Origin: Aggregicoccus sp. 17bor-14
Lineage (GTDB): Bacteria; Myxococcota; Myxococcia; Myxococcales; Myxococcaceae
DNA: 64,000 bases
Direction of reading: 5' to 3'
Assembly: GCF_009659535.1 (NCBI RefSeq)
Contig: NZ_VJZZ01000009.1
Coordinates: 1 to 64,000 of the forward strand
Below the pieces are notes generated by a model. The model worked only from the letters and a program-made list of their open reading frames with translations. It had not been told where the DNA came from and searched no databases. Below are positions 19,138 to 41,205 of the stretch, piece after piece. Within the stretch, counting starts at the first letter, position 1; every line of letters begins with the position of its first letter. Both the position numbers and the translations under genes were made by a program.

Positions 19138-22100
19138 ATGGACAAGAACAAGATCATCGAAGCCGCCGCGAAGCTGGTGGCCAAGGGCGCTTACGACAAG
19201 GCCATCAAGGAATACCAGAAGGTCCTCGAGTCGGACCCGCGGGACGTGCGCGTCCTCCAGAAGATGGGGGAGCTGTTCCAGAAGAAGAACGACAACGTGC
19301 AGGCCGCCACCTACTTCACCAAGGTGGCCGAGAGCTACGCGTCCGACGGCTTCTTCCTCAAGGCGGTGGCGCTCTACAAGCAGGTGCAGAAGCTCAACCC
19401 CACGCTGCTCGAGGTGAACCTCAAGCTCGCGGAGCTGCACCAGCAGCTGGGCCTCATGTCCGAGGCGACGGCGTACTTCCAGATCGTCGCCAACGCGTAC
19501 GACAAGGAGGGCAACACCCGCGCGAGCCTCGACACGCTCAAGCGGATGGTGGACCTCGATCCGGACAACGTCACCAGCCGCATCAAGCTCGGTGAGCTGT
19601 ACGCGCGCGAGGACATGCCCAAGGAGGCGCTGCCGGAGTTCAAGCGCGCCGCCGAGTACCTCAAGCGCCACAGCCGCACGGACGACTACCTGCGCGTGGC
19701 CGAGCGCATCAGCGCGCTCGAGCCGGACAACCTGCCGATCGCCAAGGAGCTCGCCACGAGCTACCTGGCGAAGGGGGACCAGAAGCGCGCGCTCGCCAAG
19801 CTGCAGATCTGCTTCAAGGCGGACGGCAAGGACGTGGAGACGCTGAACCTGCTCGCGCAGGCGTTCCAGGGCCTGGGCCAGACCTCCAAGACGGTGAGCG
19901 TCTACAAGGAGCTGGTGAAGGTGCTCGAGGAGCGCGGGCGCCAGGGCGAGGCGGACGGCGTCTGGTCGCGCATCGAGGTGCTGGACCCCTCGGACCCGGA
20001 CCTCGCCGAGCGCCGCGGGCCCTCCGCCGCGGCCGTGGACCCCGAGCCCGCGCCGGCCGCTGCCGCGGCTCCCGCGCGCGCCGCGGCACCCGCCCCGGCC
20101 GCTCCCTCGCGCGCGGCCCCTGCGGCGCCCGCGCCCGCGGCGGCGCCTGCGCCCGCGGCGGCTGCGCTGCCGCGCGAGCAGTTCGCCAAGGTGCTCACGG
20201 AGACGGACGTCTACGTGAAGTACGGACTGCACGACAAGGCGCTCGAGCACCTGCGCAAGATCTTCGCGCTGGACCCCGAGAACCTCGACGCGCACGAGAA
20301 GGCGCACGCCATCTACGTGGCCTCGGGCAGCGACGCGCAGGCGGCCGAGCAGCTGCTCAACGTGCTGCGCCTGTGCACGCGCCGCTCGGACGTGGCGCGC
20401 GCGCAGCCCTACCTCGCCACGCTGATGCAGGAGCAGCCGGACCACCCCGAGCTGCCCGCCTTCCTCGCGGTGCTGCAGGGCGGCGCGGACGGGGAGCTCG
20501 CCGAGCCGGTGGTGACCGAGGACGAGGCCTCCGGCTCCTACGACGGCTCGGACGACGACGCCATCCTCGTGGACTCGAACGACGACGAGGTCATCGTCTC
20601 GCCCGCGCCCGCGGACGCGCTCGCGCAGCCGGAGGGAGACGAGCTCGCGCTCGCCACCGTGAGCGGTGCGGACGCGGACGAGATCGTGGACGACGACGTC
20701 GAGCCCGTGGTCACCGGCGAGTACACGCCGCTGGACGACGGGGACGCGGAGCCGGTCGCGTACGCGCTCGCGGACGACGGCGACGACGAGCCGCTGGCCA
20801 CCAGCGGGGACGACGAGCCGCTGGGGTTCGTGGCGCAGGACGCCTCGGCCGACGAGGCCATCGTCGACGAGGACGTGGTCGACGACGCGGTGGTCGACGA
20901 CGCGGTGGTCATCGACCCCGGCGGCTTCGGGGACGCGGAGCAGGACTTCGGCGACGTGGCGGCCGCGGCGGCCCCGGACGAGGACGTGGAGGCCACGCGC
21001 GCCTTCACGCTCACGCCGGAGCTGCTGCAGCGCGCCCAGCCCACGCAGCGCCTGCCCACGGTGCCACCGGCGCCCGCGCGCGCAGCACCCCCTGCGCCCG
21101 CTGCACCGACCCGCGCCGCGGCGCCCGCGCCTGCTGCCCCCGCGCGCCCGGCGGCGCCTGCTCCTGCGGCGCGCGCCGAGGCCCCGCGCCCCGCCAGTGC
21201 GCCTGCGCGCCGCAGCAGCGAGCCCTCGCTCGAGGCCGCCGCGCTGCAGGCTGCGGCGCAGCGGCAGCCTGCGCCCGCGCCCGCGCGCTCCGCTCCGCCG
21301 GTCGCGAGCGCGGCGCCCCCCGAGCCCGAGGGCGAGGAGCCGGCGGCGGAGGAGTGCGACGAGGCGTCCTTCTTCCTCGACCAGGGGCTGCTCGAGGAGG
21401 CGCGCGAGATCCTCGAGACGGTGCAGATCGCCTTCCCGGGCCACGCGCGCGCCGCCGAGCTGATGGAGCGCCTGGAGGCGCTCGAGGCGGGTGGGGCGCC
21501 TGCGCCGAGCGAGCCGGTGCCCGCCGCGGCCGTGGCCGTGCCCTCGGTGCAGCCGGTGGGCGAGGAGCCGCGCGACGCCTTCGACCTCGCGGCGGAGCTG
21601 GCCAGCGAGGTGGACACGCTGGGCGGCGCGGACGCCGCGCCCGAGCCCGCCGCGGAGGACTTCCAGTACTCGGTGGAGGAGGTGTTCGCCGAGTTCAAGA
21701 AGGGCCTCGAGAAGGTGGTGAAGCCCGAGGACGTGGACACGCACTACGACCTGGGCATCGCCTACAAGGAGATGGGCCTCGTGGACGACGCCATCGGCGA
21801 GTTCACCGTCGCGCGCCAGGGCTGCGTGGGCACCAAGCGCGAGGTGGAGTGCCTCACCATGGTGGGCATGCTCCAGGTGATGCAGGGCGACGCCGCGGCT
21901 GCGGTGAGCACCTTCAAGGAGGCGCTCGCGAGCGAGCACGCCGCGGGCGAGGCCACCAAGGCGCTGGGCTTCGAGCTGGCGATGGCGCAGGAGGCCGCCG
22001 GCAGCCCCGGCAAGGCGCTCTACCACTACCGCCGCGTGGCCGCGCTGGACCCGCGCTACCGCGACGTGGGCGCGCAGGTGGCGCGGCTCGCGGCGAGCGT

Positions 22101-22203
22101 GCAGGCCGAGGACGACGCGCTGCCCGGCGCGCGGGGCGCGGGCGCGGCGGTGGCCGCCGCCTCGAATGCGGCACCCAAGACCCGGAAGGTCGGCTACGTG
22201 TAG
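19138..22203 (+). CDS. sgmX: TPR protein, SgmX-like type IV pilus polarity effector
   Basis: A 1021-residue cytoplasmic protein without signal peptide. Residues 1 to about 290 are tandem TPRs (for example KGAYDKAIKEYQKVLESDP). An Ala/Pro linker (about 295-345) is followed by more TPRs (about 350-450). Next come a very acidic, low-complexity region (about 455-625, rich in DD, DE and VVDD), an Ala/Pro-rich region (about 640-735) and a final TPR block (about 745-1000) with THYDLGIAYKEMGLVDDAI. In M. xanthus, SgmX is a TPR protein encoded near the pil cluster downstream of accC. It is recruited to the leading pole by MglA-GTP and stimulates pilus formation. Order, size and architecture match, so the name is assigned by synteny. 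The next ATPase gene follows after 15 bases. Confidence 0.82.
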   Translation: MDKNKIIEAAAKLVAKGAYDKAIKEYQKVLESDPRDVRVLQKMGELFQKKNDNVQAATYFTKVAESYASDGFFLKAVALYKQVQKLNPTLLEVNLKLAELHQQLGLMSEATAYFQIVANAYDKEGNTRASLDTLKRMVDLDPDNVTSRIKLGELYAREDMPKEALPEFKRAAEYLKRHSRTDDYLRVAERISALEPDNLPIAKELATSYLAKGDQKRALAKLQICFKADGKDVETLNLLAQAFQGLGQTSKTVSVYKELVKVLEERGRQGEADGVWSRIEVLDPSDPDLAERRGPSAAAVDPEPAPAAAAAPARAAAPAPAAPSRAAPAAPAPAAAPAPAAAALPREQFAKVLTETDVYVKYGLHDKALEHLRKIFALDPENLDAHEKAHAIYVASGSDAQAAEQLLNVLRLCTRRSDVARAQPYLATLMQEQPDHPELPAFLAVLQGGADGELAEPVVTEDEASGSYDGSDDDAILVDSNDDEVIVSPAPADALAQPEGDELALATVSGADADEIVDDDVEPVVTGEYTPLDDGDAEPVAYALADDGDDEPLATSGDDEPLGFVAQDASADEAIVDEDVVDDAVVDDAVVIDPGGFGDAEQDFGDVAAAAAPDEDVEATRAFTLTPELLQRAQPTQRLPTVPPAPARAAPPAPAAPTRAAAPAPAAPARPAAPAPAARAEAPRPASAPARRSSEPSLEAAALQAAAQRQPAPAPARSAPPVASAAPPEPEGEEPAAEECDEASFFLDQGLLEEAREILETVQIAFPGHARAAELMERLEALEAGGAPAPSEPVPAAAVAVPSVQPVGEEPRDAFDLAAELASEVDTLGGADAAPEPAAEDFQYSVEEVFAEFKKGLEKVVKPEDVDTHYDLGIAYKEMGLVDDAIGEFTVARQGCVGTKREVECLTMVGMLQVMQGDAAAAVSTFKEALASEHAAGEATKALGFELAMAQEAAGSPGKALYHYRRVAALDPRYRDVGAQVARLAASVQAEDDALPGARGAGAAVAAASNAAPKTRKVGYV

Positions 22204-22218
22204 TCGCGCGGGGGAACG

Positions 22219-23181
22219 ATGACCTATCTCGACTACTTCGAGCTCACCCAGGAGCCGTTCTCGAACGCGCCGGTGAGCCGCTTCTATTACAACTCCACGC
22301 AGCACTCGCAGGCGCTCACCCGGCTGATGCACGCCGTGAGCTACATGAAGGGCCTGTCCATCCTGGTGGGGGACATCGGGGCGGGCAAGACCACGCTCGC
22401 GCGCCGCATGCTCGACTCGCTCCCGGAGAGCGAGTACGAGGCCGCGCTGCTGGTCATCATCCACTCGGGCATCACCGCGAACTGGCTGCTGCGCCGCATC
22501 GCGCTGCAGCTGGGCGTGGAGAGCCCCGCGCAGGAGAAGCTCGCGCTGCTCAGCCAGCTCTACCAGCGCCTGCTGCAGATCTACGAGTCCGGCAAGAAGG
22601 CCGTGGTCCTCATCGACGAGGCCCAGATGCTCGAGACGCGGGAGATCATGGAGGAGTTCCGGGGGCTGCTGAACCTGGAGGTCCCCGAGCGCAAGCTCAT
22701 CTCCTTCGTGTTCTTCGGGCTCCCGGACATCGAGAAGAACCTCAAGCTGGACCCGCCGCTCGCCCAGCGCGTGGCGCTGCGCTACAAGCTCGAGCCCTTC
22801 ACCGCCGAGTCCACCGAGGCCTACGTGAAGCACCGGCTGCGGCTCGCCGGCTGCCCGCGCCTGCCCTTCACGCCCGAGGCGCTGCTCGCGGTGCACGAGC
22901 ACTCGGGCGGCACCCCGCGCGTCATCAACACGCTGTGCGACAACGCGCTCTTCGAGGCCTTCCTCTCCCGCGAGGAGACCATCAACGAGCAGCTGGTGCA
23001 CCGCATCGGACAGAACCTGGGCCTGCAGCGCGGCGCGGCCGGGGCGGAAGGCGCGGCGGCGCTCGCGGCGACCGGGACCTCCGGGGCGGGGGCAGCGTCC
23101 GCTCCCGCACGCTCGGCCACGGGCGGCAAGCTCGACCTGGCCGAGATCGACCGCTACCTCGAGGGGCTGGGTAAGCTGTAG
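22219..23181 (+). CDS. ExeA/GspA-like AAA ATPase linked to the sgmX-like gene
   Basis: A 320-residue ATPase beginning MTYLDYFELTQEPFSNAP, the typical opening of ExeA/GspA-family proteins. Walker A is GDIGAGKT (residues 51-58), Walker B VVLIDEAQM (about 136), and sensor regions and HSGGTPRVINTLCDNALF follow. Known ExeA proteins are membrane-anchored and carry a peptidoglycan-binding domain. This protein lacks both and ends after an Ala/Gly linker in a short helix KLDLAEIDRYLEGLGKL, which could be a docking peptide. The ribosome-binding site GGGGGAA lies in the 15-base gap to the sgmX-like gene, so the two are probably co-translated. A role in pilus machine assembly is inference. A general membrane-trafficking or chromosome-partner ATPase is possible. 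Confidence 0.85.
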   Translation: MTYLDYFELTQEPFSNAPVSRFYYNSTQHSQALTRLMHAVSYMKGLSILVGDIGAGKTTLARRMLDSLPESEYEAALLVIIHSGITANWLLRRIALQLGVESPAQEKLALLSQLYQRLLQIYESGKKAVVLIDEAQMLETREIMEEFRGLLNLEVPERKLISFVFFGLPDIEKNLKLDPPLAQRVALRYKLEPFTAESTEAYVKHRLRLAGCPRLPFTPEALLAVHEHSGGTPRVINTLCDNALFEAFLSREETINEQLVHRIGQNLGLQRGAAGAEGAAALAATGTSGAGAASAPARSATGGKLDLAEIDRYLEGLGKL

Positions 23182-23186
23182 CGGCC

Positions 23187-26100
23187 GTGACGCCCACGCA
23201 CCGGAACGGCGCTCGCAAGGCGCTCCTGCTCGTCCTGCTGCTGCTCGCGGCGAGCGTGGCGCTGCTGCGCCGCCCGGAGACGTGGGACGCCGCGTGCACG
23301 CTCGCGCGCCGCGAGCTGCCCGGCCTCACCGGGCTCGAGGTGGGCATCGGCCGCTGCGAGCTGGACCCGCTCGCGCAGACGCTGCGCCTGCGCGGCCTCT
23401 CGCTGTTCGTCCCGGGCACGGACACGCCGCTCTTCGCGGCGGACCTCGCCGAGGTGCAGCTGGGCTTCGTCTCGCCCTTCTCGGGGCGGCTGCCGGTGAG
23501 CCGGGTGCGCGTGGACCGGCCGCGCGTGAGCCTGGACCTCGCCCAGGCGCGCACCGCGCCCGCCGCGGCGACGGGCGCTCCCGCTGCGCCCACCTGCCCG
23601 CTGCAGCAGCTCGAGCGGCTGCGCGTGGGCCGGCTGGACATCCGCGACGCCGAGCTGCGCGTGGCGCTGCCGAAGGGGCGGCGCGTGGAGGTGGGCGGGG
23701 TGGACCTGGACTGGCGCGAGCGCTGGGGCGCCGCCGAGTTCGACCTCGAGGCGCGCGAGGGCCGGGTGCGGCTGGGCGAGGCGCAGGGGCCCGAGCTGCA
23801 GGGCCCCGAGCAGCAGGGCCCGGAGGAGCTCGTGCTGGGCCGCCTCGTGCTCTCGGGGCTGCTGGACCCGGACGAGGCGCTGCTCGAGGTGGACCGCGGC
23901 GAGCTGGCGGTGGAGGACGTGACGCTCTCGCTCAGCGGCAAGGTGGAGGAGCTGTGCAGCCCGGTGCTGGACCTGGACGTGCAGGCCTTCGTGCCGCTGC
24001 GCACCGTGGCGCGCATCGCCGCGCTGCCTCGCCCCGCCGAGGGGCACGTCTGGGCGCGCGTGGGGCTCAAGGGCCGCCCCGAGCACCTGAGCGCGAGTGC
24101 GGACGTGTCCACGAGCGGGCTCGCGTACGGCGCCTACGCGCCCGGCAGCCTCACCGCGCGCCTCTCCTACGGGGGAGAGCTGCTGCGCGTGGAGGAGCTG
24201 GTGGTGCCCGCGGGCGCGGGCAAGGCCACCGTGCGCGGCGAGCTGCGGCTCACGCCGGGCCTGCCCACGCAGGCCACGCTGGAGGCAGAGGGCGCGAGCC
24301 TCGCGCGGGTGCTGGAGAAGGCGGGGCTGCCGGGCGCGTGGGTGGACTTCCCCGCCACCGGCACCGCGCGCGTGGCCGGCACGCTGCTGCCGCGCCCGCA
24401 GCTGCACGGCGACCTGGACCTGCGCACCGGGCCCTTCCGGCTCGCCACGCGCCCCTTCGACCAGCCCTCGCGCAAGGGGCTCGAGCTGCTGCACTTCGAG
24501 CGCGGGCACGTGCGCGCGCAGCTCAACATTGGCCCGGACCAGGTGCGCTTCGGGGCCTTGAGCGTGGAGACGGCGAAGAGCCGCGTGCAGGGCGAGGCCA
24601 CGCTCTACTACGAGCCCAGCCGCGGCCTGGACGTGCGCGGCAAGGGCGAGCTGGACCTCGCGGACTTCGGGATGATCGCCGAGCTGCCCTGGAGCGGGCG
24701 CGGCGGCGCGGAGTTCGAGGTGACCGGCCCCTACAGCGACGTGCGGGTGGGCGCGGCGCTGTCCCTGCGCGACTTCGTCTTCTGGGGCTTCGGGCTGGGC
24801 GTGGTGCAGGGAAGGCTCTCGTACGCGGACGGCACGCTCGCCTTCCCGCACGTGAGCGGCCAGAAGGGGCGCACCCCGTACACGGGGGGCGGCGCGCTCA
24901 CCTTCGGCCCCACGCTGCACACGCGCGGGCGCATCGAAGTGCAGCACGGGCGCACCGAGGACCTGGTGGACCTGGTGGCGGGACTCAGCCCCTCGCTCGC
25001 GCTGATGCAGGGCACGCTGGGCGGCACGGTCTCCGGCAAGGTGGCGGTGGAGGGGCCCGCGGACCACTTCGGCGGCGGCATCGAGCTCGCGCTGCAGGAC
25101 ACCACCTACTACGGCCGGCGCATGGGCAACGGCACCGCGCGCCTGCGCTTCGTGGACGGCAAGGCGCTCGCCATGGAGCGCACCGTGCTCGAGGGGCCGC
25201 TGGGGCGCACCTGGGCGGAGGGCACCTTCACCTTCCTCGGCGGGGGGCTCGACTACCGCTACGGCGGCGAGAAGCTCTCCCTGCCCGAGCTGGTGGGGCC
25301 CGAGCAGGCGGCGCGCCTGGGCATCGAGGGCACGCTCGCGCTGGAGGGGGAGGTGGGCGGCAACGCGGACCTGCCCACCGCGAGCGGTCGGCTGAGCGCG
25401 CCCAACATCCGCTTCGCGCAGCGCGACCTGGGGCCCCTGAGCCTCGAGGGGCGCATGGTGGGCAAGGACTTCCAGCTGTGGGGCAAGCCCGCGCGGGATG
25501 CGAACGGCTTCGTGCGCGTGAAGCTGCGCGAGCCCTTCCCCTACGACGCCTCGCTCACGCTCACGCTGCCGGAGATCCGCCCGCTGCTGCCTGCGGTGGC
25601 CGCGGCGCAGGGGCTGAGCGGCTCGGTGTCCGGCGTCATCAGCGCGCAGGGCAACTTCCGCGACCCCGCGGACGCGCAGGTGGGCGCCACCTTCGAGCGG
25701 CTGCGGCTCTCCCGCGGCGACTTCGCGGGCGAGAACGACGGCCCGGTGGTGCTCACCTTCAGCCGCGGGCGCCTGGACCTGCAGGCCTTCACCTTCCGCG
25801 GGCCCAACACCGAGCTCGCGGCGGCCGGCTGGGTGGGCCCGGAGCGGCTGGACCTGAGCATGCGCGGCGCCATGGACGTGCGCCTGCTCGAGAGCTTCGT
25901 GCCGGGGCTCGAGCGCACCGGCGGCACGCTGGAGCTCAACGCGGTGGCGAGCGGCCCCTTGCAGAGCCCCACGCTGATGGGCAGCGCCGAGCTGCGCGAC
26001 GCGAAGCTCGCCCTGCGCGACCAGGCCCTGAGCGTGCGCGGGCTCAACGGCCGGCTCGAGTTCACCGAGCACCGCGTGCTGCTCGAGGACCTGCAGGGCC

Positions 26101-27152
26101 AGCTCAACGAGGGGCGCGTGGCGGTGCGCGGCGACGTGCGGCTCGAGCGCTTCGAGCCGCAGCAGCTGGAGCTGGGACTGCAGCTCACCGACGTGGCCTT
26201 CCGCCCGACGGAAGACCTGCCGCTCACGGCCTCCGGAGAGCTGCTGCTCAGCGGCAAGCCGGACGCGCTGCTGCTCACCGGCGACCTGGAGGTGGTGCGC
26301 CTGCGCTACCAGAAGGGCCTGGAGCTGGACGCGCTGCTGCAGGGCCTGGGGCGGCGCAGCGTGCTCAGCGCCTCCAGCGTGGAGCGCCCGCGCGAGTACC
26401 TCACCCTGGACGTGAAGGTGCACCTGGGGGACGTGCGCGTGGACAACAACCTGGCGCGCGCGAAGCTGCTGGGCGACCTGCGCCTCACCGGCACCAACAC
26501 GCGCCTGGGCCTGCTCGGCACGCTGGAGGCCGCGGAGGGCAGCCGGGCCTTCTTCCGCAACAACGAGTTCGCCATCACCCAGGGCGTGCTCGAGTTCAAG
26601 GACCGCTACGCCATCGATCCGGTGTTCGACCTGCACGCCACCACCCAGGTGCGAGACCACCTGGTGAAGCTGCACGGCTTCGGGCGCATCGCGAGCCCCC
26701 AGGTGCTGCTCGCCAGCGAGCCGGACCTGCCCGAGGGCGACATCCTCAGCCTGCTCACCCTGGGCGTGATGAGTCGCGACAAGGAGGCCACCGCGGCCAC
26801 CGGCGCCAGCCTCGCCGCCGAGGCCCTGTTCAACGTCTCCGGGCTGGACCGCCAGGTGCAGCGCTTCCTGCCCAAGAACCCGCTGCTGCGAGATCTGTCC
26901 TTCCAGATCTCCACCGCGTACAACGCCTCCAGCTCGCAGGTGGAGCCCACCGCACAGCTGGAGTCGAAGTTCCTCACCGAGCAGCTTAAGCTCACCATGC
27001 AGCAGCCCGTCAGCGGCCGGGGCACCCGCGCCCGCGCCGAGTACCGCTTCGACAACCGACTCTCCACCCAGGCCCAGTGGGACAACGAGCACAGCGACGC
27101 GGCGTTCGGCAACCTCGGCCTGGAGCTCAAGCTCAGCTGGCAGGTGGAGTAG
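23187..27152 (+). CDS. tamB: TamB-family inter-membrane bridge protein
   Basis: A very long (1321-residue) protein starting at GTG five bases after the ATPase stop. A single N-terminal hydrophobic anchor (residues about 10-28) is followed by about 1000 residues of repetitive beta-type sequence, with many short strands ending in Gly-Asp or Leu-rich turns, as in AsmA/TamB bridge proteins. The C-terminal 370 residues match the TamB (DUF490) pattern: LRLTGTNTRLGLLGTLEAAEG, FKDRYAIDPVFDLHATT and ending in a beta-signal-like LGLELKLSWQVE. TamB proteins span the periplasm and are implicated in barrel insertion and phospholipid transport to the outer membrane. The barrel partner gene overlaps its 3' end. 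Length is near the E. coli value. Confidence 0.87.
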   Translation: MTPTHRNGARKALLLVLLLLAASVALLRRPETWDAACTLARRELPGLTGLEVGIGRCELDPLAQTLRLRGLSLFVPGTDTPLFAADLAEVQLGFVSPFSGRLPVSRVRVDRPRVSLDLAQARTAPAAATGAPAAPTCPLQQLERLRVGRLDIRDAELRVALPKGRRVEVGGVDLDWRERWGAAEFDLEAREGRVRLGEAQGPELQGPEQQGPEELVLGRLVLSGLLDPDEALLEVDRGELAVEDVTLSLSGKVEELCSPVLDLDVQAFVPLRTVARIAALPRPAEGHVWARVGLKGRPEHLSASADVSTSGLAYGAYAPGSLTARLSYGGELLRVEELVVPAGAGKATVRGELRLTPGLPTQATLEAEGASLARVLEKAGLPGAWVDFPATGTARVAGTLLPRPQLHGDLDLRTGPFRLATRPFDQPSRKGLELLHFERGHVRAQLNIGPDQVRFGALSVETAKSRVQGEATLYYEPSRGLDVRGKGELDLADFGMIAELPWSGRGGAEFEVTGPYSDVRVGAALSLRDFVFWGFGLGVVQGRLSYADGTLAFPHVSGQKGRTPYTGGGALTFGPTLHTRGRIEVQHGRTEDLVDLVAGLSPSLALMQGTLGGTVSGKVAVEGPADHFGGGIELALQDTTYYGRRMGNGTARLRFVDGKALAMERTVLEGPLGRTWAEGTFTFLGGGLDYRYGGEKLSLPELVGPEQAARLGIEGTLALEGEVGGNADLPTASGRLSAPNIRFAQRDLGPLSLEGRMVGKDFQLWGKPARDANGFVRVKLREPFPYDASLTLTLPEIRPLLPAVAAAQGLSGSVSGVISAQGNFRDPADAQVGATFERLRLSRGDFAGENDGPVVLTFSRGRLDLQAFTFRGPNTELAAAGWVGPERLDLSMRGAMDVRLLESFVPGLERTGGTLELNAVASGPLQSPTLMGSAELRDAKLALRDQALSVRGLNGRLEFTEHRVLLEDLQGQLNEGRVAVRGDVRLERFEPQQLELGLQLTDVAFRPTEDLPLTASGELLLSGKPDALLLTGDLEVVRLRYQKGLELDALLQGLGRRSVLSASSVERPREYLTLDVKVHLGDVRVDNNLARAKLLGDLRLTGTNTRLGLLGTLEAAEGSRAFFRNNEFAITQGVLEFKDRYAIDPVFDLHATTQVRDHLVKLHGFGRIASPQVLLASEPDLPEGDILSLLTLGVMSRDKEATAATGASLAAEALFNVSGLDRQVQRFLPKNPLLRDLSFQISTAYNASSSQVEPTAQLESKFLTEQLKLTMQQPVSGRGTRARAEYRFDNRLSTQAQWDNEHSDAAFGNLGLELKLSWQVE

Positions 27153-30100
27153 CGCGCGCGCTCGCCCTGGCGCTGGCGCTCGCGGCGGGAAGCGCCCTCG
27201 CGCAGGCGCCCGCGGCCGCGCCGGCGGCCCCACTTCCTGCCGACGCCCCGCTGGACCCGCGGCCGCTCATCGCCGGGGTGGAGCTGCACCTGCCGGCGGG
27301 CGTGGACACGGCGGGCCTGAGCGAGCTGGTGGCGGTGCGCGCAGGCCAGCACCTGAGCACGCGCGCCGTGCGCCGCTCCATCGAGCGGCTGTGGGCCACC
27401 GGCCGCTTCACGGACGTGGTGGCGCGGGTGCAGGAGGGGGGCGCAGGCGCCGGAGTGACGGTCGTCTTCGAGCTCACCCCCGTGAAGCAGCTCGCGGAGC
27501 TGGGCATCGTGGGCAACGTGGTGCTGCGCGACGAGCAGGTGCGCGCGGCGAGCGGCCTCGCCGAGGGCCGCCCCTTCGACCCGGACGGGCTGGACGCGGC
27601 GCTGCGCGCCATCCAGGACGCCTACCACGCCCGCGGCTACGACTCGGCCCAGGTGCAGGTGGAGCGCCGCGAGGTGCCCGGCGGCGTCTCGCTCACGCTG
27701 GTGGTGGACGAGGGGCCTCCCACGCGCGTGGCGGCCGTCACGCTCGCGGGCAGCCCCGGCCTGCCGCTGCCCGAGCTGCTCGGCGCGCTGGGGCTGCAGG
27801 TGGGCGGCGTGCTCGAGCGCGCCGCGCTCGCGGACGGGGTGGAGCGGCTGCGCACCCGGCTGCGCGAGCAGCGCTTCTACCGGGCGCGCGTGGACGAGCC
27901 GCAGGTGAAGGTGGAGGGCACCCGGGCCAGCATCTCGGTGCCGGTGCAGGCCGGCCCCCAGGTCAGCTTCCACTTCCACGGCAACCACCACTTCACGGAC
28001 GCGACCCTGCGCGACGTGCTCGCCTACGACGCGAGCGAGCCCCTGGACGCGGTGATCATCGGGCGGCTCTCGCGCCGGCTCGCCGCCTTCTACCGCCACC
28101 GCGGCTACCACTCGGTGCGCGTGGAGCCGCGCGAGGTGCCGCGCCCGGACGGCGCCGAGCTGGTGCTGGTGTTCGAGGTGGAGGAGGGGCCCCCGCTGGT
28201 GGTGCGCGAGGTGCGCTTCGAGGGCAACACCGCCTTCGACGACGAGACCCTGCGCCAGGCGCTGTTCGAGCGCGTGCGGGTGAGCGCCCCGGACACCGGC
28301 AACGCCCCGCGCCTGATGGACGACCCGCTCGCCATCGAGGGGCGCGAGCGGCGCGAGCAGCTGCGCGATGCGAACGCGCCGGACCCCTCCACCGTGTTCG
28401 TGGAGGGCCCCTACCTGGAGGCCGCGGACCTGATGACCGCGGCCTACCGCGAGCGCGGCTACCTGCAGGCCCAGGTGCGCTTCGCCGAGCTCGTGCGCGA
28501 GGAGGACACCCGCACGGCGCGCGCGCGCTTCGTGGTGCACGAGGGGCCCCAGGCGCGCGTGGCCAGCCTCACGCGCGAGGGCTTCCCGGTGGGAGGCGCG
28601 CCGCTGCCGGGCTCGCTCGCGCCGGGCTCCGTGTTCGGCTTCCCCGCGGTGGAGCGGGACCGGCTCGCGCTCGGCCACGCGCTGGGGCGCCGCGGCTACC
28701 TCTTCGCCAAGGTGGAGGCGCAGACGGACGTCTCGGCGGACGGGCGCGAGGCGCGGGTGCGCTTCCGCGCGGAGCCGGGGCCGCAGGTGCGCGTGGGGCA
28801 GATCATCCTCCAGGGGCTGGGGCGCACCGAGGAGTCCACCGTGCGCGCGAACCTCAAGGTGCGCGCGGGCGACGTGCTCGACCCCGAGGCCCTCTTCGAG
28901 ACGCAGCGCGCGCTGGTGCTGCTGGGCATCTTCCGGCAGGTGACGGTGCGCCTGCTCGCGCCGGAGACGGTGGAGCCCACCAAGGACGTGGTGGTGGAGG
29001 TGCGCGAGCGGCCGCGCATCGACGGCGAGGTGGCCGGCGGCTACTTCCTCGTGGACGGGCCCCGCGTGCAGCTGGACACGGCCTTCCCGAACGTGAACGG
29101 CAGCGGCCTCAACCTGAACGCCCGCGGCAAGCTCAACTACGTGGGCTGGAACGCGCAGGTGCTCTCCGGCGAGTTCGACTGCCCGCGCGAGTGCGAGGAG
29201 CTCACCGGCCTGCCGGGCCTCGGTGGCCAGGGCACGCTCTCGGTGGCGCAGCCGCGCCTGTACGCGCTGCTGCCCTTGGAGGTGGGCGCGCGCCTGGACG
29301 TCATCGGCGAGCGCGTGCACCGCGCCTCCTACGTGTCCACGCGCGCCGCCGCCGTGGCCAGCCTCGACTGGGCCGCCACGCGCTGGCTCTCGCTCAGCCT
29401 GCAGTACCAGCTGGAGAACAGCCGCGTGCGCCCGCTGGGCGTGGCCGGCACGGAGCTGGTGAGCAGCGGCCGCCCCGAGGAGGAGCGCACCCGCTTCGAC
29501 TACGGCGTGTTCGGCCTGCACTCGCTGCGGCCCACCGCCACGCTGGACTTCCGCAACGACCCGGTGAACCCGCGCCGCGGCCTGCTGCTCTCCACCAGCG
29601 CGGAGCTCATCCGCGGCCTGAGCGTGGCGCCCACGGACGCGCAGGGAAACCCGCTGCCGGCCTTCCCCATCAACGGGCTCAAGCTCTCGGGCACCTTCAG
29701 CGTGTACGTGCCGGCGGGCAAGCGCGCGGTGCTCGCAGCCAGCCTGCGCGGCGGCACCGTGCGGCAGCTCGAGTCCGGCGCCCGCACCATCCCGCCCAAG
29801 CGCTTCTTCCTCGGCGGCTCCACCAGCCTGCGCGGCTTCCGCGAGGACAACCTGCTGCCCGAGGACCGCCGCCGCTCGCTGCACACGCAGCTCGCCGACT
29901 GCCGCGCGCTGCTCAACCCCGCTGGCTGCTCGCAGGAGGCGCTGGTGCTGCTGGGCGGCGACAGCCTGCCCAGCCAGGGCGGTGAGCTCTTCACCCTGGC
30001 GAAGCTGGAGCTGCGCGTGCCGGTGTACCGCGCCCTGGACGTGGGCCTCTTCACCGAGGCGGGCAACCTCTGGCTGGACCCGGCCGCCTTCGACCTCGCC

Positions 30101-30244
30101 ATCCTGCGCCCGGTGGCCGGCGCGGGCCTGCGCTACAGCACGCCCGTGGGGCCGCTCGCGCTGGATGTGGGCGTGAACCTGCACCGCGACCGCGAGGTGA
30201 ACGAGCCCAGCATGCAGGTGCACTTCGCCATCGGCCTGTTCTGA
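27077..30244 (+). CDS. TamA/BamA-like outer-membrane assembly protein (Omp85)
   Basis: An Omp85-superfamily protein with repeated POTRA domains (TRAVRRSIERLWATGRFTDV and similar, about five or more over residues 60-640) and a C-terminal 16-strand barrel ending AIGLF. The barrel has the lid-loop motif GGSTSLRGFRE and GAGLRYSTPVGPLALDVG, close to the canonical VRGF and GPL motifs. The start is uncertain. GTG at 27077 overlaps tamB by 76 bases and gives a 25-residue extension before the signal peptide (ALALALALAAGSALA). A CTG at 27137 would give a conventional signal peptide. The paired TamB upstream suggests TamA function, but the POTRA count is above the usual three of TamA. BamA itself is therefore a possibility. 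Confidence 0.85.
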   Translation: MGQRAQRRGVRQPRPGAQAQLAGGVARALALALALAAGSALAQAPAAAPAAPLPADAPLDPRPLIAGVELHLPAGVDTAGLSELVAVRAGQHLSTRAVRRSIERLWATGRFTDVVARVQEGGAGAGVTVVFELTPVKQLAELGIVGNVVLRDEQVRAASGLAEGRPFDPDGLDAALRAIQDAYHARGYDSAQVQVERREVPGGVSLTLVVDEGPPTRVAAVTLAGSPGLPLPELLGALGLQVGGVLERAALADGVERLRTRLREQRFYRARVDEPQVKVEGTRASISVPVQAGPQVSFHFHGNHHFTDATLRDVLAYDASEPLDAVIIGRLSRRLAAFYRHRGYHSVRVEPREVPRPDGAELVLVFEVEEGPPLVVREVRFEGNTAFDDETLRQALFERVRVSAPDTGNAPRLMDDPLAIEGRERREQLRDANAPDPSTVFVEGPYLEAADLMTAAYRERGYLQAQVRFAELVREEDTRTARARFVVHEGPQARVASLTREGFPVGGAPLPGSLAPGSVFGFPAVERDRLALGHALGRRGYLFAKVEAQTDVSADGREARVRFRAEPGPQVRVGQIILQGLGRTEESTVRANLKVRAGDVLDPEALFETQRALVLLGIFRQVTVRLLAPETVEPTKDVVVEVRERPRIDGEVAGGYFLVDGPRVQLDTAFPNVNGSGLNLNARGKLNYVGWNAQVLSGEFDCPRECEELTGLPGLGGQGTLSVAQPRLYALLPLEVGARLDVIGERVHRASYVSTRAAAVASLDWAATRWLSLSLQYQLENSRVRPLGVAGTELVSSGRPEEERTRFDYGVFGLHSLRPTATLDFRNDPVNPRRGLLLSTSAELIRGLSVAPTDAQGNPLPAFPINGLKLSGTFSVYVPAGKRAVLAASLRGGTVRQLESGARTIPPKRFFLGGSTSLRGFREDNLLPEDRRRSLHTQLADCRALLNPAGCSQEALVLLGGDSLPSQGGELFTLAKLELRVPVYRALDVGLFTEAGNLWLDPAAFDLAILRPVAGAGLRYSTPVGPLALDVGVNLHRDREVNEPSMQVHFAIGLF

Positions 30245-30264
30245 GTGGGCTACATTGCCGCCCT

Positions 30265-31614
30265 GTGTTCTACCGGCTCGTCCAGGCAGTGGTGGCCTTC
30301 GCGGTGCGGCTCTTCTACCGGGTGCGGGTGAGCGCACCCCCGCTCGAGCCCGAGGGGTCCGTCATCTTCGTGGGCAACCACCCCAACGGGCTGATGGACC
30401 CCGCGCTCGTCTTCATCCTCACCCGGCGCAAGGTGACCTTCCTCGCCAAGGCGCCGCTCTTCGCGCTGCCGGTGCTGGGGGCGCTCCTGCGCGGGCTGGA
30501 CGCGCTGCCCGTGTTCCGCCGCCAGGACGACCCCGGCCAGATGAACCGCAACGAGGGCACCTTCGAGGCCGCCACGGGCGCGCTCGTCGAGGGACGCGCG
30601 CTCACGCTGTTTCCCGAGGGCAAGAGCCACTCGGAGCCGGGGCTCGCGGAGCTGAAGACGGGCGCGGCGCGCATCGCGTTTCGCGCCCAGGCGCGCGGGG
30701 CGCGGGTGCGCATCGTGCCGGTGGGGCTCACCTACGCGGAGAAGCACCGCTTCCGCAGCGAGGTGCTCATCGACGTGGGGCCCGCCATCGAGGTCGCGGA
30801 CTTCTCCGTGCCTTCGGGCGAGGGCGAGGGCGAGGTCGCGGCGGTGCAGCGGCTCACCGAGCGCATTGCGCAGGCCCTGAAGGAGCGCACCCTGAACCTC
30901 GCCGCCTGGGAGGACCTGCCGCTGGTGCGCACCGCGGAGCAGCTCTACGCCCTGCGCCAGGGCGAGCGGCCGGCCTCCGAGCGGCTGCGCACCTGGGCGC
31001 GCGGCCTGGAGCTGTTCCGCGCGGAGCAGCCCGCGCGCTTCGAGGCCGTGCGCGCCGAGCTCGTCGGCTTCCAGCGCCGGCTCGCCCTGGTGCGCGCGGA
31101 CCCCTCGGACCTCGCGCTGGGCTACCGCCCGGCGGAGGTGGCGCGCTTCGTGGGCAACAACCTCGCCTCGCTGCTGCTCGGCCTGCCGCTCTTCGCGCTC
31201 GGGGTGCTGCTCTACGTGCTGCCCTTCCAGCTGCCGCGGGCCTGGGTGCGGCTGCAGCGCACGGAGCTGGACGTGCAGGCCACGGTGAAGTTCCTGGGCT
31301 CGCTCGTGCTGGCGCCGCTGTGGTGGGCGCTGCTGACCTTCGTCGCCTGGCGCGTGGCGGGCCCCGCGTGGGCGCTGCTCGTCTTCGCCGCGGCGCTGCC
31401 GCTCGCGCTCTTCACCCGCTACTTCCTCGCGCGCTGGCGCGAGGTGCTGCGCGACGTGGCCGTCTTCTTCGCGCTCGGCAGCCGCGCGCGGCTCAAGGCG
31501 CGCCTCCTGCAAGAGGGCGCGCGGCTCTCGGCAGAGGTGGAGCGGCTCGCCGGCGAGTACGGCCCGCGCGTCAGCCCGCCGCAGCCGGGCGCGCCGGCGG
31601 CGGAGGCGCGCTGA
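30265..31614 (+). CDS. PlsC-like glycerolipid acyltransferase, HX5D type
   Basis: A 449-residue protein starting at GTG. The N-terminal half has acyltransferase motifs: NHPNGLMDP (an HX5D spacing instead of the HX4D of PlsC), FRRQDDPGQMNRNEGTF, LFPEGKSHSEP and IVPVGLTY. This spacing and the EGTF element are seen in eukaryote-like glycerol-3-phosphate/dihydroxyacetone-phosphate acyltransferases. The C-terminal half has a helical region and two or three membrane helices (about residues 295-395). It probably acylates glycerol-3-phosphate or lysophospholipid. It starts 20 bases after the TamA-like gene, giving a TamB-TamA-acyltransferase run. Its last 44 bases overlap the convergent MFS gene. Confidence 0.82.
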   Translation: MFYRLVQAVVAFAVRLFYRVRVSAPPLEPEGSVIFVGNHPNGLMDPALVFILTRRKVTFLAKAPLFALPVLGALLRGLDALPVFRRQDDPGQMNRNEGTFEAATGALVEGRALTLFPEGKSHSEPGLAELKTGAARIAFRAQARGARVRIVPVGLTYAEKHRFRSEVLIDVGPAIEVADFSVPSGEGEGEVAAVQRLTERIAQALKERTLNLAAWEDLPLVRTAEQLYALRQGERPASERLRTWARGLELFRAEQPARFEAVRAELVGFQRRLALVRADPSDLALGYRPAEVARFVGNNLASLLLGLPLFALGVLLYVLPFQLPRAWVRLQRTELDVQATVKFLGSLVLAPLWWALLTFVAWRVAGPAWALLVFAAALPLALFTRYFLARWREVLRDVAVFFALGSRARLKARLLQEGARLSAEVERLAGEYGPRVSPPQPGAPAAEAR

Positions 31615-32857
31615 AGGGCGCAGGGGGCCGCGCGAGCTGCTCACCCAGCCAGCGCGAGGCCACCAGCAGGGCCGCGCCGCCGAAGAGCACGGGCACCGCG
31701 TTGAGCTCGATGGCGAGCCCGTAGGAGCCCGCATCCGCGATGGCCCCGATGGCGGTGGGGGAGAGCGCATCGCCCAGCAGGTGGATGCACAGCACGTTGA
31801 AGCCCATGGCGAAGGCGCGGAAGGCCGGCGGCACGCAGTTCACGATCGCCGCGTTGATGGGCCCGCTGTTGAGGAAGAGGAGGAACTGCGCCACGAACAC
31901 CGCCGCGCAGATGGGCCAGAAGCCCTGCACCTTCGCCGCGAGGTAGATGAAGGGGGCCGCGCCCAGCAGCCCGAAGCCCGACATGCGCAGGCCACCGCCC
32001 GCGCGCCGGCGGTCCAGCCGGTCTCCGAGCCGCCCGCCCACCAGCGTGCCCACGATGCCCGCGAGCACCGTCACCACGCCCAGCACCAGGCCCGCGTTGT
32101 CCTCGGCGAAGCCGCGCTCGCGCACGAGGAAGGTGGGCATCCACACCGCGATGCCGCCGATGGAGAAGGTCATCAGCGTGTAGCCCAGCGTCGTCGCCCA
32201 GAAGGCGCGGTTGCGCGCGAGCCCCTTGAGGCCCACGAGGAAGGGCAGCTTCACCTCCGCGTCCGGCCCGTCCATGGCGCCGCGGCGCGGCTCCCACATG
32301 GTGAAGGCGAGCAGCGCGAGCAGCAGGCCCGGCACGCCCGCCGCGTAGAAGGCCACGTTCCAGGAGTAGGCCTTGGTGAGCCAGCCGCCCAGCACGTAGC
32401 CCAGGCCCGCGCCCACCGGGATGGCCACGTAGAAGAAGGCCAGCTTCGCGGTGCGCTCGTCGCGCGGGTAGAGGTCCGAGATGATGGAGGGCGCCACCGC
32501 GCCGTAGCCCGCCTCGCCGACGCCAATCACACAGCGCGCGACGAGCAGCATGCCGAAGGAGGTGGCGAGGCCCGAGGCCCCCGTGGCGAGGCTCCACAGG
32601 AGCACGCTGCCGCCCACCAGGAGCTTTCTCGGCAGCCGGTCCCCGAGGAAGCCCCCCAGCGGCGAGGCCACCATGAACACCACGATGAAGAGCGAGGCGA
32701 GCAGGCCGCCCTGCTTGCCGCTCAGGCCGAACTGCTCCTGGATGCGCGGCATCGCCACCGCGATGACGTAGCGGTCCAGGTAGTTCACCAGGTTGATGAG
32801 CGTCAGCACGAACAGCGCGAAGCCTGCGCGGCGGGAGACGGAAGCGGCAGCGCTCAT
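31571..32857 (-). CDS. Major facilitator superfamily transporter, Spinster-like
   Basis: A 428-residue transporter with twelve predicted helices. Signature pieces include LINLVNYLDRYVIAVAMP at the first helix, the loop 2-3 motif GGFLGDRLPRKLLV, and GEAGYGAVAPSIISDLYP in helix 5. The NYLDR and GEA motifs are typical of Spinster-type MFS members, which carry lipids or organic anions. The substrate here cannot be deduced. ATG at 32857 overlaps the ppx stop by four bases (ATGA), and a GGAGG ribosome-binding site lies upstream. It is the last gene of the tol-aminotransferase-ppx run, and its 3' end overlaps the convergent acyltransferase gene by 44 bases. Confidence 0.87.
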   Translation of the reverse strand: MSAAASVSRRAGFALFVLTLINLVNYLDRYVIAVAMPRIQEQFGLSGKQGGLLASLFIVVFMVASPLGGFLGDRLPRKLLVGGSVLLWSLATGASGLATSFGMLLVARCVIGVGEAGYGAVAPSIISDLYPRDERTAKLAFFYVAIPVGAGLGYVLGGWLTKAYSWNVAFYAAGVPGLLLALLAFTMWEPRRGAMDGPDAEVKLPFLVGLKGLARNRAFWATTLGYTLMTFSIGGIAVWMPTFLVRERGFAEDNAGLVLGVVTVLAGIVGTLVGGRLGDRLDRRRAGGGLRMSGFGLLGAAPFIYLAAKVQGFWPICAAVFVAQFLLFLNSGPINAAIVNCVPPAFRAFAMGFNVLCIHLLGDALSPTAIGAIADAGSYGLAIELNAVPVLFGGAALLVASRWLGEQLARPPAPFSAPPPPARPAAAG

Positions 32858-33810
32858 GACGGGACTCCTCCGAAGCGGTGGGCGAGCAGGCCCCAGCGAA
32901 GCCCGCGGTCGCTCACCCGCAGGCTCGTGAGCCCCAGCGCGCGCACCGCGCACAGGAGGATGAGCGCGCCCGCGGGCACCACGTCCGCGCGCTTGGGCTG
33001 CAGGCCGGGCAGGGCACGGCGCTCGGCGAGCGGCAGGCGCCAGAGCAGGTCGGTGAGGCGCTCGAGCTCCGCGAGCGACAGCGTGCCCGCGTGCACGCGC
33101 TCGGCGTCGTAGGGCTCCACGCGGTGCTGCACGGCGTAGAGCGTGGTGACGGTGCCGGCCACGCCCACCAGGCTCGCGCCCGCGGGAGGCGGGGGGAGGG
33201 CGGAGAAGGTCTGCGCGAGCAGCGCCTCCATCTGCGCCCGCTCGCTGGCCTGCGGCGGATCCGCGCGCACGAGCCGCTCGGTGAGCCGCACCGCGCCCAC
33301 GTCGAAGCTGTGGCGGAAGGCCACCTGCCCCTGCGCATCCCCTGCGGCTCCATAGATGAACTCGGTGGAGCCCCCGCCGATGTCGATGACGAGCAGCGGG
33401 CCTGCCGCCCCGGCCGCGAAGTCCGCGTGCACGGCGGCGAAGGAGAGCTGCGCCTCGAGCGCGCCGGAGATGATCTCCACGCTCAGGCCCGCGCGGGTGC
33501 GCGCGGCCTCGAGGAAGTCCTTGCCGTTGTGCGCATCTCGCGCGGCGCTGGTGGCGGACACCGCGATGTCCCGGGCGCCCAGCGCGCGCGCCTCCTGGGC
33601 GAAAGCCTCCAGCACCCGCAGCGTGTCCTCCATGCCCGCGGGCGAGAGGACGCGGCTCTGGTCCACGCCGCGGCCCAGACGGGTGATCTCCGCGCGCTCG
33701 CTCACGGCGGTGAAGCGCCCGTCCGCCTGGCGCTCGGCCACGAGGAGGAGGACGGAGTTGGTGCCGATGTCGATGGTGGCGAAGCGGGGAGCGGCGGGGG
33801 GCTGCGGCAT
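32854..33810 (-). CDS. Ppx/GppA family exopolyphosphatase or pppGpp phosphatase
   Basis: A 318-residue ASKHA-fold enzyme consisting only of the Ppx/GppA domain, with phosphate loops ATIDIGTNSVLLLVAE near the N-terminus, VIDIGGGSTEFIYG in the middle and GVAGTVTTL. The Glu in SGALEAQLSF matches the catalytic region. Long Ppx and GppA proteins have a C-terminal HD-like domain of about 180 residues, and this protein stops before it. Short forms are common in Deltaproteobacteria and may prefer short polyphosphate or pppGpp. It begins ten bases after the aminotransferase stop and overlaps the MFS start by four bases, so it is a coupled member of the tol run. Confidence 0.92.
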   Translation of the reverse strand: MPQPPAAPRFATIDIGTNSVLLLVAERQADGRFTAVSERAEITRLGRGVDQSRVLSPAGMEDTLRVLEAFAQEARALGARDIAVSATSAARDAHNGKDFLEAARTRAGLSVEIISGALEAQLSFAAVHADFAAGAAGPLLVIDIGGGSTEFIYGAAGDAQGQVAFRHSFDVGAVRLTERLVRADPPQASERAQMEALLAQTFSALPPPPAGASLVGVAGTVTTLYAVQHRVEPYDAERVHAGTLSLAELERLTDLLWRLPLAERRALPGLQPKRADVVPAGALILLCAVRALGLTSLRVSDRGLRWGLLAHRFGGVPS

Positions 33811-40353: not shown

Positions 40354-41205
40354 TCAGCGCGCGCGCAGGACCGCGGGCAGGTGCTCGGGCTCCTCGGAGC
40401 CGCCCTGCAGCAGCTCGCGCGCGGCGCTCACCACCTCCGGCAGCGGCACCTCGGTCTCCTGCACCAGCTGGCGCGCCGCCTCCGCGCCGATGTCGTCCTG
40501 GCGCGGCAGCAGGCCCGTGATGCGGGTGATGAGGCGCTCGGCGAGCGGGAAGAAGTGGACCATGCTCAGCGGCTTGTTCATCCAGCCCACGGTGATGCAG
40601 TAGTACTTGTTGAAGGGCGCCGTGTGGTGCACGCGGTGGTGGTCCGGCGGCAGGATGAGGTGCAGCCGCTGCAGCAGCCCCACCACCGGGCCCGGCGCGT
40701 CCAGGTGCGACCACTTGTGGAACTGGTTGGTCGCCATCACCCAGAAGATCATCGAGCCCAGCGCCGCCGAGGCGAAGAGCCACAGCGCGCTCGAGTGCGG
40801 CAGCAGCACCGCGATGATCGCCACCGGGATCGAGACGAGGCAGTTGTTGCCGTTGGTCTCCACGAAGTCGTGGCGGGTGATCGCCTTCTCGTCCACGTGG
40901 TGCTCGCGGAAGGGGCGGATGAAGGCCTTGCCCAGCAGGGGCATCTCGGTGGAGCCCCAGGTGTCGCCCGCCCAGTGCACGAAGCCGGAGACGAAGTCCG
41001 CGGCGAGGTAGCCCAGCACCAGCGCGCCCAGCACGAGCAGCGGGCTGAGGAAGGGATTGCCCCAGATGCGGTACACGAGGAAGAGCTCGAGCGAGACGAA
41101 CGTCACGATGCTCGCGATCTCCATCGCACGGATGGCCGGGCTGTAGCCCTGGGCCAGGGCGTGAGCGTCTTGCTGACGCAGGGAGGAGGGGGCGCGGTCG
41201 TTCAT
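40354..41205 (-). CDS. carF: CarF / TMEM189-type plasmanylethanolamine desaturase
   Basis: CarF introduces the vinyl-ether double bond that makes plasmalogens. In M. xanthus it is needed for the singlet-oxygen light response that induces carotenoids, and its human counterpart is TMEM189/PEDS1. The 283-residue protein has the family length, three to four membrane segments and the full set of histidine motifs: SGFVHWAGD, PFREHHVDEKAITRHDF with the following ETNGNN, ATNQFHKWSH and PPDHHRVHHTAPFNKYYC. All histidine clusters expected to bind the di-iron centre are present, so the enzyme should be active. The 158-base gap upstream contains a 7-bp inverted repeat GAATGCC-GGGC-GGCATTC (41268-41285). 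Confidence 0.93.
   Translation of the reverse strand: MNDRAPSSLRQQDAHALAQGYSPAIRAMEIASIVTFVSLELFLVYRIWGNPFLSPLLVLGALVLGYLAADFVSGFVHWAGDTWGSTEMPLLGKAFIRPFREHHVDEKAITRHDFVETNGNNCLVSIPVAIIAVLLPHSSALWLFASAALGSMIFWVMATNQFHKWSHLDAPGPVVGLLQRLHLILPPDHHRVHHTAPFNKYYCITVGWMNKPLSMVHFFPLAERLITRITGLLPRQDDIGAEAARQLVQETEVPLPEVVSAARELLQGGSEEPEHLPAVLRAR

Follow-up and report, generated by a model that had tools for sequence, protein, structure and literature searches.

A Spinster-family transporter is the recurrent neighbor of an HX5D acyltransferase that, in Myxococcaceae, joins a TamB-Omp85 gene run

Our comparisons across three bacterial phyla suggest that the recurrent partner of an acyltransferase with an HX5D motif is a Spinster-family transporter, not TamB. 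This transporter was absent from a sequence-only reading of the same DNA, which had centered on a trio of TamB, an Omp85 barrel, and the acyltransferase. We put the chance that the enzyme and its neighboring transporter form a lysophospholipid salvage pair at about even.

The window analyzed here is a stretch of 64,000 nucleotides (G+C 72.7%) from Aggregicoccus sp. 17bor-14, whose genome measures 6.9 Mb. Its gene content (pilM-Q, efp, accB, accC, and sgmX) matches the pil/sgmX region of Myxococcus xanthus. Genes were called from open reading frames (ORFs) and codon-position G+C, and families were assigned with Pfam and NCBIfam/TIGR models, scores being compared with the model cut-offs, giving the following features:

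19138..22203, forward strand: sgmX homologue, a TPR protein of type IV pilus activation, which opens the run (NCBIfam NF052243 SgmX, 1365.8 bits, the cut-off of 1800 not being reached)
22219..23181, forward strand: AAA ATPase of the ExeA / pepcterm_ATPase type (PF13401, 80.1 bits; TIGR03015, 191.8, under the cut-off)
23187..27152, forward strand: tamB, 1321 aa (PF04357, 171.9 bits at residues 968-1318, cut-off 22.4)
27077..30244, forward strand: omp85, a BamA/TamA-like outer-membrane barrel (PF07244 in five stretches; PF01103; TIGR03303, 278.6 bits)
30265..31614, forward strand: HX5D glycerophospholipid-type acyltransferase, 449 aa (PF01553, 61.9 bits; AF2 pLDDT 92.4)
31571..32953, reverse strand: Spinster (SPNS)-family MFS transporter, assigned from phmmer matches in the PDB (SPNS1 1.7e-61, SPNS2 8e-57), signature residues, and adjacency in other phyla

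The run is as tight as first described. By ORF coordinates, sgmX and the ATPase gene are 15 bases apart and the ATPase gene and tamB 5 bases apart, the longest omp85 frame overlaps tamB by 76 bases, and the acyltransferase starts 20 bases beyond the omp85 stop. The omp85 start is uncertain, and an in-frame CTG at 27137 would still give an overlap. The transporter gene is convergent with the acyltransferase gene and overlaps its 3' end by 44 bases. A promoter and terminator scan gave no promoter match and one terminator match, within the acyltransferase gene, which is fewer than in shuffled sequences. The same-strand genes may be co-transcribed. The window also encodes, 9 kb from the acyltransferase (40354-41205, reverse strand), a Lipid_desat protein (PF10520, 199 bits), from the domain family to which the CarF/TMEM189 plasmalogen desaturases belong.

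The sgmX-(ATPase)-tamB-omp85 portion of the locus is not new. The sgmX-tamB-omp85 order was described in 2014 and 2020 (PMC3983030, PMC7668184), and M. xanthus MXAN_5766-5763, in which an ATPase gene interrupts that order, was described together with Bdellovibrio bd2492-2495 (PMC3983030). The window has the same genes in the same order as the M. xanthus operon, including the ATPase gene (PMC3983030, PMC7668184), and shares the sgmX-tamB-omp85 order with Bdellovibrio, where bd2492-2495 are co-transcribed by RT-PCR and deletion of the TamA-like gene was unobtainable (PMC3983030). Loss of the genes downstream of sgmX leaves type IV pilus motility in M. xanthus unaffected (PMC7668184, PMC11580455). 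The accessible portions of these operon accounts make no mention of an acyltransferase or a transporter (PMC3983030, PMC7668184, PMC11580455). The open-access literature yielded no paper in which this acyltransferase is paired with either TamB or a Spinster gene.

The TamB protein has a hydrophobic segment close to its N terminus and its TamB domain at the C terminus. Its pairing with an Omp85 gene recalls the TamAB and BamA-TamB modules (PMC4494059), whereas the window Omp85 (PF01103, 87.6 bits, cut-off 24) has at least five POTRA stretches (PF07244), lies below the TamA model (NF047950, 93.7 bits against 625), and is just short of the BamA model (TIGR03303, cut-off 297.15). A stronger Omp85 match (213 bits) on contig C22 is probably the BamA of this genome. 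A second TamB of the window genome (G000) is encoded on contig C20, where an Omp85 gene and ExbB/ExbD-like genes adjoin it, an arrangement also seen in loci L054 and L095.

By domain model and predicted fold, the acyltransferase is a member of the PlsC/GPAT (PF01553) family, and acyl transfer is its predicted activity. PF01553 (cut-off 23) is the sole Pfam domain in the protein, and the 1-acyl-G3P acyltransferase model TIGR00530 scores 52.4, under its cut-off of 102.95. Whereas motif I of PF01553 acyltransferases is usually spaced as HX4D, the HX5D motif (HPNGLMD) noticed in the first reading is real, and neither H39 nor D45 varies across the 44 relatives that were aligned. The AF2 model consists of a PlsC-fold domain and a C-terminal helical extension. 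Its best structural match is bacterial PlsC (5kym, Z 18.8, rmsd 2.6 over 188), and human GPAT1 (8e4y, Z 16.6, rmsd 4.5 over 250) follows, along with plant GPATs; a single-sequence search of solved structures returned no relative, and a profile search returned only PlsC 5kym.

Scanning genomes with an alignment built from varied representatives of the family recovered at least 547 relatives across bacteria. The best 80, which we analyzed, come from Myxococcota, Acidobacteriota, Gemmatimonadota, Chloroflexota, Bacteroidota, Planctomycetota, and Pseudomonadota, although some MAG titles behind these labels are clearly mislabeled. Given this breadth and the first rank of bacterial PlsC, the label "eukaryote-like" finds no support as a statement of the enzyme's origin. 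The phage collection searched contained three weak partial matches only. A second copy of the acyltransferase, ≈55% identical, occurs in loci L056 and L071 and in genera g7, g8, g13, g14, and g16, with neither TamB nor Spinster adjoining in the loci read.

How far the enzyme accompanies TamB was determined by comparing positions in Myxococcaceae genomes; other families were judged from fetched loci and 80-locus profiles. Among 146 genomes of the phylum Myxococcota, 80 encode the enzyme and 138 TamB. In 55 Myxococcaceae genomes, the enzyme follows TamB in the same orientation, and the stretch from the TamB domain to the enzyme is shorter than 3.3 kb in 13 of them, which leaves room for omp85 alone (about 3.1 kb), 3.3-4.5 kb in 25, and 4.5 to 12 kb in 17. 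For the majority of these 25 genomes, the additional 0.55 kb contains a frame of 173-177 codons with a lipoprotein-signal-like start, as judged from its translation. The enzyme thus adjoins the barrel gene, or stands one small lipoprotein-like gene away from it, in about 38 of the 55 genomes. Because the gene order is kept across Myxococcaceae genera, the arrangement is not due to chance.

Other families of the order have the sgmX-ATPase-tamB(-omp85) run without the acyltransferase in the fetched loci, and no TamB or Omp85 gene was found near the enzyme in the fetched Myxococcota loci outside Myxococcaceae. Purpose-built profiles likewise detected neither neighbor in any of the 80 loci, drawn from several phyla (the best 80 of at least 547 relatives). 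In the loci compared, the acyltransferase joins the sgmX-(ATPase)-tamB-omp85 run only in Myxococcaceae: the trio is conserved beyond this strain, with larger insertions in the 17 genomes, but a general occurrence of the combination is not supported. In two Myxococcota genomes without the enzyme, G094 (L110) and G119 (L057), a Spinster gene adjoins tamB-omp85.

In the sequence-only reading, phospholipid bound for the outer membrane would be supplied by the acyltransferase and exported by TamAB, the two forming one co-regulated unit; these distributions bear on that proposal. Such a unit would fit the close packing of the genes on one strand, where 20 bases separate omp85 from the enzyme in the window and most Myxococcaceae genera have short gaps, as well as the implication of TamB proteins in phospholipid transport (PMC8912898, PMC11014939). 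The linkage is limited to Myxococcaceae, however, and in 17 of the 55 genomes the TamB-enzyme stretch, normally filled by omp85 alone, is far longer. The window genome also encodes 15 PF01553 matches, several of them PlsC-like, and one PlsY; PlsY and the PlsC-like proteins, encoded elsewhere, give de novo phosphatidate synthesis genes of its own, so the acyltransferase need not be a phospholipid supply. A lipid theme is plausible, and we regard the supply-and-export unit itself as unlikely.

The window MFS protein is, by its sequence relatives and its TM1/TM4 network, a Spinster-family transporter, and among solved structures the human lysophospholipid carrier SPNS1 ranks first, SPNS2 second. 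HnSpns, the bacterial member of solved structure, matches it at 1e-27, and SPNS1 outranks HnSpns not only here but also for an Acidobacteriota partner (5e-54 to SPNS1) and a distant Myxococcota partner (6.2e-52 to SPNS1), for both of which SPNS1 is the best solved match. The Spinster signature residues have a role in proton coupling and in transport of lysophosphatidylcholine (LPC) and S1P (PMC13192786, PMC9440201). SPNS1 mediates the lysosomal exit of lysophospholipids, and its LPC uptake is impaired when either the TM1 Arg or the TM4 Glu is mutated (PMC13192786). The window transporter keeps D60 and R61 (the TM1 Asp-Arg), R140 and E147 (the TM4 Arg and Glu), and the TM7 Arg, and the TM1 and TM4 pairs are present in 49 of 49 aligned MFS rows. 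The proton-sensing Asp of TM2, which forms the TM2-TM7 salt bridge, is found in 43 of the 49 rows and is replaced by Gly in the window transporter; both it and the TM7 Arg are kept in all 22 transporters that adjoin the enzyme on the same strand. The window protein differs from SPNS1 further in being bacterial and encoded beside an acyltransferase, and lysophospholipid is its putative substrate.

Adjacency of enzyme and transporter extends well beyond Myxococcaceae. Genes around the loci were called by a simple codon-position method that missed some genes. Upstream neighbors of the enzyme are MFS genes in 25 of 78 loci (17 Spinster/OATP-type, 8 ATG22-type), compared with at most 1 of 78 for third neighbors (Fisher p 5e-8, related loci not being independent). 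The 17 Spinster genes lie directly upstream on the same strand, with one more on the downstream side, whereas most enzyme loci of the 80-locus sample have no Spinster neighbor. The two genes are no more than 250 bases apart in 14 of the 15 Acidobacteriota genomes that have both, and 13 of these pairs share a strand; in Gemmatimonadota, they are adjacent in 4 of 7 such genomes, always on the same strand; and Myxococcota families f3, f15, and f19 likewise have them side by side in one orientation. Outside Myxococcaceae, in these two phyla and in distant Myxococcota, the paired genes overlap or are separated by a short gap; among 56 Myxococcaceae, 37 have them convergent and no more than 300 bases apart. 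An enzyme tree built by a quick method places the pairing in at least three separate parts: Myxococcaceae, Acidobacteriota/Gemmatimonadota, and a further, mainly Myxococcota part.

Co-occurrence of the two genes in Acidobacteriota does not clearly exceed chance (15 genomes against 12.7 expected), and the enzyme is missing from 29 of the 44 Acidobacteriota and 11 of the 18 Gemmatimonadota genomes that carry the transporter. Enzyme-free Spinster genes adjoin a DPP-IV/S9 peptidase gene, an M3 peptidase gene with a TLC transporter gene, or a glycosyltransferase gene, so that transporter substrates may vary. Gemmatimonadota loci L169, L180, L208, L210, and L211 have a DPP-IV/S9 peptidase gene immediately upstream of the Spinster gene, with or without the acyltransferase, L169 and L180 being enzyme-bearing. 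In Myxococcota family f23, the Spinster gene and a TLC ATP/ADP-transporter-like gene belong to one run (L102, L103), and L102 also contains the M3 peptidase gene. An ATG22-type MFS gene takes the place of the Spinster gene beside the acyltransferase in L129, L133, L136, L137, L151, L154, and L172, where one transporter partner may have been exchanged for another. Long frames in L126, L135, L181, and L199 were considered as MFS-acyltransferase fusions and rejected, as they carry the acyltransferase domain alone (Pfam).

The most economical account of these observations is that the enzyme and the transporter are a functional pair held together by selection. In the salvage reading, the transporter would use the proton gradient to move lysophospholipids across the inner membrane from the periplasmic to the cytoplasmic side, much as SPNS1 carries them from the lysosome to the cytosol. 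With acyl-ACP or acyl-CoA as donor, the acyltransferase would then restore the lost acyl chain. The lysophospholipids could arise from outer-membrane damage, lipoprotein maturation, or digested prey. We infer this substrate by analogy with SPNS1 and with LplT-Aas of E. coli (PMC11416262), in which the MFS protein LplT flips lysophospholipids, Aas re-acylates them, and the two proteins bind each other. The proposed pair would work like LplT-Aas, importing through the inner membrane before re-acylation and linking an MFS protein to a PlsC-fold acyltransferase, yet would be built of different parts: the transporter is Spinster-type, not LplT, and the enzyme carries an HX5D motif and a helical extension at its C terminus but lacks the fused acyl-ACP ligase domain of the Aas type.

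Support for the salvage pair thus comes from a Spinster-type MFS protein with its kept residues, from adjacency and its spread over the tree, from the PlsC fold with the motif His and Asp, and from the LplT-Aas precedent. Counted against it are the enzyme-free Spinster genes, whose other neighbors leave other substrates possible, the many enzyme loci without a Spinster neighbor (8 with an ATG22-type MFS gene instead), the near-chance joint presence in Acidobacteriota, and the TM2 Gly of the window transporter. In Myxococcaceae, the convergent genes cannot share a transcript, which also weighs against the pair.

Some PF01553 proteins acylate non-phospholipid substrates. The enzyme might make, and the transporter export, a lipid product, be it a signaling lysolipid, an amino acid or sugar carrying an acyl group, or a surfactant. 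An exporter model exists for HnSpns, and MsSpns is under study for drug transport (PMC13192786, PMC9440201), points that also tell against salvage, and the peptidase and glycosyltransferase genes beside other Spinster genes are compatible with synthesis and efflux as well. We nevertheless consider this improbable: the best match of three separate partners is SPNS1, which moves lysophospholipid towards the cytosol, and the top structural matches of the enzyme are PlsC and then the GPATs. Neutral synteny, in which tamAB, the enzyme, and an MFS-ppx-tolB block are neighbors in Myxococcaceae by shared ancestry without joint action, is very doubtful, for although enzyme-free loci of other families also have the tolB/ppx block close to tamB (L039, L110) and several genera tolerate insertions between the genes, recurrence of the same-strand pair in Acidobacteriota, Gemmatimonadota, and distant Myxococcota makes local synteny an insufficient explanation; for the enzyme-TamAB part alone, it may apply.

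If the functional pair is real, the enzyme gene would have come to lie between the transporter gene and the TamAB run in Myxococcaceae. Its position at the 3' end of the sgmX-ATPase-tamB-omp85 run, converging on the transporter, brings two candidates into one locus: TamAB as a candidate outward phospholipid bridge and the enzyme with its transporter as a candidate inward repair route. At somewhat less than even odds, we propose more broadly that bacteria of three or more phyla salvage lysophospholipid by means of a Spinster-type transporter paired with an HX5D acyltransferase, independently of LplT-Aas and in parallel to lysosomal SPNS1, and that Myxococcaceae joined this salvage to TamAB, so that envelope phospholipids are both delivered outward and repaired inward from one locus.

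Bacterial Spinster proteins serve as models for SPNS1 and SPNS2, and an acyltransferase that recurs beside them directs the search for their natural substrates to one specific class that can be tested. If the proposal is true, bacteria would have a second MFS-plus-acyltransferase solution to lysophospholipid repair besides LplT-Aas, and Myxococcaceae would have placed the repair step beside TamAB, a candidate phospholipid bridge.
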